Source of the DNA: Desulfobacterales bacterium
Lineage (GTDB): Bacteria; Desulfobacterota; Desulfobacteria; Desulfobacterales; Desulfosalsimonadaceae
DNA length: 32,188 bases
NCBI GenBank assembly: GCA_018399235.1
Contig: JAGYOX010000025.1
Span: forward strand, 1 to 32,188
Direction: 5' to 3'
Shown in pieces: positions 29,376 through 29,422 of this stretch. The notes under the pieces were generated by a model. It had not been told where the DNA came from. It did no database searches and saw only the letters and a program-made list of their open reading frames with translations. Each line of letters opens with the position of its first letter. The first letter of the stretch is position 1. Both the position numbers and the translations under genes were made by a program.

Positions 29376-29403
29376 TTGACAAAATTTAAGCGGATGATAC
29401 GAT
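29376..29403 (+). promoter_or_regulatory. Candidate promoter of the winged-helix gene
   Basis: TTGACA (29376-29381) and TACGAT (29398-29403) with 16-base spacing face right. The -10 box overlaps the -10 box of the leftward eno promoter by two bases, so the two promoters share one centre. Confidence 0.5.
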
Positions 29404-29422
29404 TTAAATTGCCTGCTGTCAA
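29394..29422 (-). promoter_or_regulatory. Sigma-70 promoter of eno
   Basis: On the minus strand a perfect TTGACA (29422-29417), a 17-base spacer and TATCAT (29399-29394; 5/6) predict a start near 29387 and a leader of about 58 bases before eno. This is the best sigma-70 match seen in the window. Confidence 0.75.

Follow-up and report, generated by a model that had tools for sequence, protein, structure and literature searches.

Genes and Promoter Boxes between eno and P0001

The window, that is, the whole stretch of 32,188 nucleotides analysed here, contains two divergent protein genes, eno and P0001, and between them the sequence TTGACAAAATTTAAGCGGATGATACGATTTAAATTGCCTGCTGTCAA (29376-29422), in which two opposed sets of promoter boxes overlap (Table 1). 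The leftward gene had been named eno in the earlier note, an identity that the matches to both Pfam enolase domains bear out, and a GGAGG motif lies upstream of its ATG at 29329.

Table 1. Coordinates of the genes, promoter boxes and predicted transcription starts in the window.
Feature	Position	Strand	Remarks
eno, enolase, 426 aa	28049..29329	-	Pfam Enolase_N + Enolase_C (PF00113/PF03952)
Rightward (P0001-ward) -35, TTGACA	29376..29381	+	TTGAC in 36/36 and last A in 29/36 exact-geometry rows, preselected for a rightward -35 match of at least 5/6
Predicted eno start	29387	-	Expected from the boxes, 7 bp below the -10
Leftward (eno-ward) -10, TATCAT	29394..29399	-	17-bp spacer from the leftward -35
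Rightward extended -10, TG	29395..29396	+	G in 36/36 exact-geometry rows
Rightward -10, TACGAT	29398..29403	+	16-bp spacer from the rightward -35
Predicted P0001 start	29410	+	Expected from the boxes, 7 bp below the -10
Leftward (eno-ward) -35, TTGACA	29417..29422	-	In 36/36 exact-geometry rows and in 5/5 g8 genomes without P0001
P0001, 134 aa	29528..29932	+	Predicted winged helix + 50-residue C-terminal helix

The rightward gene was more difficult to classify. Pfam and NCBIfam searches assigned P0001 to no family at useful scores, and to none in Pfam at E 0.001. Its match to HTH_Crp_2 reached 16.7 bits, the family cut-off being 27; the same profile matched 22 of 62 aligned P0001-family sequences at E ≤0.5 (best, 1.6e-06), and none of eight family members that were rescanned rose above a family cut-off. 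A sequence search of the PDB gave weak matches, the best of them a DUF2807 protein (E 0.0027), together with MJ223 (E 0.0082). An AlphaFold2 model built on the 62-sequence alignment, with a mean pLDDT of 89.2, has three helices and a wing of two strands, together with one short and one long helix (residues 84-133), and the top Foldseek matches to it in the PDB were mostly winged-helix proteins (SmtB, CzrA, MepR and IscR among them), none at E ≤0.001. The description of P0001 as a winged-helix gene in the earlier note is therefore kept for the predicted fold, on the basis of the model and of Foldseek, and not as a family assignment, since the protein lies below every Pfam cut-off. P0001 would thus be a protein with a winged-helix DNA-binding fold, for which we infer a role as regulator. 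It has the predicted winged helix in common with regulators of the ArsR, MarR and Rrf2 types, but no match to them at E ≤0.001 or at a Pfam cut-off, and it differs from them in its long single C-terminal helix.

The promoter boxes had been read from the sequence as TTGACA-17-TATCAT leftward and TTGACA-16-TACGAT rightward, with two bases common to both -10 boxes, and this reading is exact. The common bases are T29398 and A29399, and the overlap recurs in relatives. The G of the rightward TG is also the fourth base (C on the minus strand) of the leftward -10. As computed from the positions of the boxes, the two predicted starts are separated by 23 bp.

Conservation of the Paired Boxes in Related Genomes

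A search for P0001 in 60 genomes (the window's own and 59 relatives) gave matches in 49 of them, and 48 of 50 loci were fetched, those left out being weak or second hits in G024 and G017 (second hit). Ten further records, titled Desulfobacterales, Desulfobacteraceae, Deltaproteobacteria or Desulfococcus, contributed intergenic regions equal to ten already in the set. Reading outward from eno, we obtained 42 distinct eno-P0001 intergenic regions, outside which remained six P0001 loci whose stretches have no eno (L009 and L018, cut by contig ends, and L052, L056, L057 and L059); L147 was left out of all counts.

In 36 of these 42 regions, a common TA is flanked by a rightward -35 matching at least 5/6, with a spacer of 16 bp, and by a leftward -35 matching 6/6, with a spacer of 17 bp. 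The conservation of both boxes in related genomes, named as a check in the earlier note, thus holds at the exact geometry in most of these regions. When the spacing was left free, both -35 boxes were present in 37 of the 42. The loss of rightward boxes with the gene kept, which the same note would have counted against its reading, was seen in a minority, with the rightward -35 weakened or lost in L028 and L053 among the six regions that depart from the exact geometry. The others are L007 and L047, where the leftward -35 is lost, L055, which is rearranged, and L058, with a rightward spacer of 18 bp. Over the 36 exact-geometry rows, the mean information was 1.88 bits for the rightward -35, 2.0 for the leftward -35 and 2.0 for the common TA, values that favour the boxes, as the rows were selected for geometry, and 0.47 bits for the 25 spacer columns. 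This low spacer information indicates that the sequences are otherwise diverged.

Distribution in the Order and in the Phylum

For a wider survey, a strict 47-bp pattern, TTGACA-N13-TGnTAnnnT-N13-TGTCAA, was used. It was found in 127 of 291 genomes of the order, with one match per genome and none for the reversed control, and it was absent from the other 164; the genomes that carry it span 34 of 73 family labels (hand count). Besides the window, 29 strict-match loci were analysed, with eno on the leftward side in all of them and a P0001 relative on the rightward side in 26; the remaining three stretches end short of the rightward gene, their lengths suggesting contig ends. Five odd-looking strict-match cases were picked in addition. 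Three of them (G064, G144 and G182) have eno leftward, and in the other two, G106 and G196 (L139 and L140), the leftward gene encodes NAD synthase (Pfam NAD_synthase), the eno match being on another contig. Both box sets persist in these two genomes between the P0001 relative and NAD synthase, from which it follows that the leftward partner is exchangeable.

Another 20 eno-P0001 stretches were picked for lacking the strict pattern. Thirteen of them showed looser paired boxes, in forms that include TTGACT or an 18-bp rightward spacer, and seven showed none even loosely (L151, L152, L153, L155, L156, L160 and L167). The 42 regions of the 60-genome sample, 17 pattern-matching regions, the 20 non-matching ones and three others make up a set of 82, of which 70 are paired, a proportion that comes from a selected set and does not estimate a frequency. 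The spacer deviates from 16/17 by 1-2 bp in seven of the 70 paired regions.

In a sample of the phylum, P0001 was matched in 22 of 198 genomes, seven of them within the order, and three of the other 15 matches were weak. No eno was present within about 1.5 kb on either side of 11 strong out-of-order P0001 matches (L111, L112, L114-L117, L119-L122 and L124, where L115 begins 7 bases before the gene); a twelfth strong out-of-order locus, L123, gave no tblastn match and was left out. In another family of the phylum, f105, four loci (L116, L119, L120 and L121) look alike by eye in the DNA preceding the P0001 relative, which suggests a second conserved neighbour of the gene there.

Rarity of the Pairing

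A promoter scan of positions 20000-32188 placed the leftward site at the top (11/12) and the rightward site as one of three at 10/12. The scan returned 24 sites in this region, with 16.7 expected from shuffles (sd 3.6), so by itself it proves little. The unusual feature is the pairing of the boxes. Two opposed -35 boxes (each at least 5/6) around one TA occur at a single place within the 32-kb window, and TTGACA-N35-TGTCAA occurs once in the window's own genome (3,466,588 bases). With three mismatches allowed, the whole pattern was found at six further places in that genome, and at two and three in the controls. Along both strands of the fetched loci (973,548 bases) there are 99 exact-spacing sites: 92, counted in bulk, have TG or GG like the element, and of the other seven one belongs to the eno element of L159 and six are at other places. 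Taken by itself, the right half (TTGACA-N13-TGnTAnnnT) occurs 3, 3, 9, 4 and 5 times in G000, G001, G058, G299 and G216, respectively, and at 3-9 copies per genome in these five genomes it is too scarce to explain the element by itself.

Bidirectional promoters are described as arising from a near-symmetric -10 element (PMC10268837), and the arrangement could accordingly be two ordinary divergent promoters that overlap by chance and were passed on by descent, the rightward half being under no selection. However, paired -35 boxes (at least 5/6, one TA) appeared in 18 of 4100 first-order Markov shuffles of the 82 eno-P0001 intergenic regions, the spacers have diverged to the average given above while both -35 boxes stay at or near 2 bits, and the rightward boxes have decayed in the g8 genomes lacking P0001 that are described below, all of which makes a chance overlap extremely improbable.

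Loci with eno and without P0001

P0001 was not found in five genomes with eno that belong to g8, a genus of the window's own family (L095, L096, L097, L098 and L100; the sixth genome, G024, had no eno match). In all four stretches that reach far enough, eno adjoins uvrD, which in the window comes directly after P0001. The five loci keep the leftward -35 TTGACA at 17 bp, with a leftward -10 of TATTAT or TATGAT, whereas the rightward -35 is down to 1-3/6, the TG is absent from all five and the rightward -10 is at 2-3/6. A deletion of P0001 would not by itself have taken away the rightward -35, since this box is situated between eno and the core and not in the missing gene. Decay of this kind is expected if P0001 was transcribed from the rightward promoter and selection acted on that promoter in its own right. 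A trade-off is visible in the leftward -10: its fourth base, which pairs with the G of the rightward TG, is for that reason C, a non-consensus base for eno, in 69 of the 70 paired regions, and it is altered in all five g8 genomes.

The pattern in g8 is probably a single evolutionary loss, however many genomes show it. Where the gene is present, both box sets are exact in the 36 of 42 regions described above, and where it is missing from g8 the rightward set is kept in 0/5. This dependence, at the level of sequence comparison, shows that the rightward half is under a selection of its own, which goes with the presence of P0001.

The same genomes bear on another reading, in which the eno promoter alone is real, the rightward TTGACA is a leader RNA or pausing signal of the eno 5' end, and P0001 uses another promoter. 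The rightward -35 does fall within the predicted eno transcript, and the Rfam search of 27500-30500, which returned nothing at E ≤1, is one that an undescribed leader would escape. The five g8 genomes, however, keep eno and its promoter and have lost the rightward -35, TG and -10 along with P0001, and we consider a leader signal very improbable.

Nineteen further eno loci without an adjoining P0001 were collected: ten from family f36, which is not represented in the 208 matching genomes, and L099, L101-L105, L137, L141 and L142. None of the 19 has both arms together with the conserved core and its TG, and L129 satisfies the loose two-box definition at an unrelated, AT-rich place. The eno-ward half is unrecognisable in the best-scoring placement of these 19, which are for this reason weaker tests than g8, though agreeing with it. 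Five loci with the element and eno where P0001 is not on the stretch (L067, L077, L128, L138 and L146) were excluded from this class.

Composition of the Core and the Possibility of an Operator

The rightward -10 is TACTCT in 38 and TACGAT in 21 of the 70 paired regions. TACTCT is a poor match to a -10 and is near-constant outside the window's own family group. Among the 40 exact-geometry rows that do not belong to the GATACG group, positions 24-26 are conserved at 0.93-0.95, and the C at position 24, third base of the rightward -10, is retained even in the g8 genomes without P0001. That the weak TACTCT is so constant could mean that the rightward promoter has to be weak, or that the core is recognised in a second way.

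This composition has also to be weighed against an operator, in which the inverted TTGACA/TGTCAA arms, 35 bp apart, would serve mainly as two binding sites of a regulator (which might be P0001), polymerase using the leftward promoter only. The arms do form an inverted repeat with near-invariant flanking C (35/36) and G (36/36), the core ATGTTACTCT is conserved outside the window's family more than a -10 requires, and P0001 has a predicted DNA-binding fold. Against this, the arms and core fit sigma70 boxes with TG, T-12, A-11 and T-7; the spacer shifts of 1-2 bp noted in seven paired regions are tolerated by promoters; g8 loses one arm and keeps the other in promoter geometry; and no paired boxes were found in the 400 bp upstream of any of 14 P0001 relatives without eno or nadE alongside (L052, L056, L057, L059, L111, L112, L114, L116, L117, L119-L122 and L124). 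An operator is, in our judgement, quite improbable, and it was the g8 pattern that led us to reject both it and the eno leader signal as the principal interpretation.

Comparison with Known Bidirectional Promoters and Proposed Mechanism

The element is very probably a sigma70-type bidirectional promoter of the 23-bp class, a single pseudo-symmetrical site that polymerase would occupy in mutually exclusive orientations, toward eno or toward P0001. Its anatomy of boxes, their fixed spacing and their retention across the order were shown from the genomes compared. The symmetric bidirectional promoter proposed in the earlier note gains support from the presence of both box sets at fixed spacing and from the decay of the rightward set alone in genomes without P0001.

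Bidirectional promoters were reportedly first described in a 2021 paper. In E. coli, pseudo-symmetrical sites with a common -10 have been given that name, with start sites most commonly 18 bp apart, spacings of 10 and 23 bp being also common, and steric constraints stop opposing polymerases from binding together (PMC12825309). According to the same source, basal activity was low and competition slight in the five E. coli promoters that were assayed, and a better -35 raised transcription in its own direction in all but one case and strongly cut the opposite RNA. The element shares with the bidirectional promoters of Warman, Grainger and colleagues the opposed -10 boxes on one site and the location between two divergent protein genes (PMC12825309 and PMC10268837), and its predicted spacing of 23 bp is one of the common ones in the former. 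It differs from the tested E. coli promoters, which are weak, in that both its -35 boxes are consensus, and in its retention at exact spacing across the families of an order, a feature not described in the sections of these papers that were consulted. The pairs acrA/acrR and soxS/soxR of E. coli (PMC12825309) have a DNA-binding protein on one side, as is predicted here too; they are regulator-target pairs, whereas here the partner is a core glycolytic enzyme and a regulation of it by P0001 would be hypothetical.

The kind of promoter is thus already known, and this member is notable for its two consensus -35 boxes, its retention in many families and its visible trade-off base. It is a current question whether promoters used in both directions are by-products of the symmetry of the -10 or have been selected as devices. 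Here the spacing of one site is preserved to the base pair in many families of an order, the boxes that point one way have decayed in genomes lacking the gene on that side, and one base is non-consensus for eno yet needed by the other gene. The element offers in this way an evolutionary test of two-way promoter function. Having two consensus -35 boxes, it is also a naturally occurring example in which competition between polymerases should be measurable, and it points to a conserved, previously unstudied protein tied to enolase. Among the titles listed as matches in an open-access literature search, none was on the eno/P0001 element.

In the mechanism that we propose, two opposed -10 elements with a common TA, each having its own consensus -35, would be read by RNA polymerase one way to produce eno and the other way to produce P0001. 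By extension from the E. coli work, transcription would start at about 29387 and 29410, and opposing polymerases would exclude each other sterically. The linking of eno output to a regulator through polymerase exclusion, as put forward in the earlier note, is plausible by this analogy. With both -35 boxes already consensus, competition at the basal level is the natural prediction: basal transcription may, with less assurance, be at a level at which the two directions compete, and the outputs of P0001 and eno might then be reciprocally coupled. A feedback of P0001 on its own promoter would be speculative. A more elaborate version, which we regard as rather unlikely in full, would be a balanced polymerase-only switch kept by selection, in which the pair of -35 boxes sets eno and P0001 reciprocally and P0001 is a lineage-specific regulator of glycolysis/gluconeogenesis that binds the ATGTTACTCT/ATGATACGAT core and biases the direction of polymerase.

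Sequences Downstream of eno

An ORF of 289 aa (26973-27842) lies downstream of eno in the same direction; it has no Pfam match at E 0.001, and its relatives recur downstream of eno at several loci. Between this ORF and the 3' end of eno sits an inverted-repeat element (27836-28012), with arms TTGACAATCTCGTAAAAAGTC and GACTTTTTACGAAGCCATCAATC and inner repeats. The repeat arm CTTTTTACGAAGNCATCAA, with at most one mismatch, gave 85 matches in the window's own genome and none for the reversed control, and the element is a member of a dispersed REP- or MITE-like family. Copies that resemble it by eye are located upstream of eno in L095 and L011.
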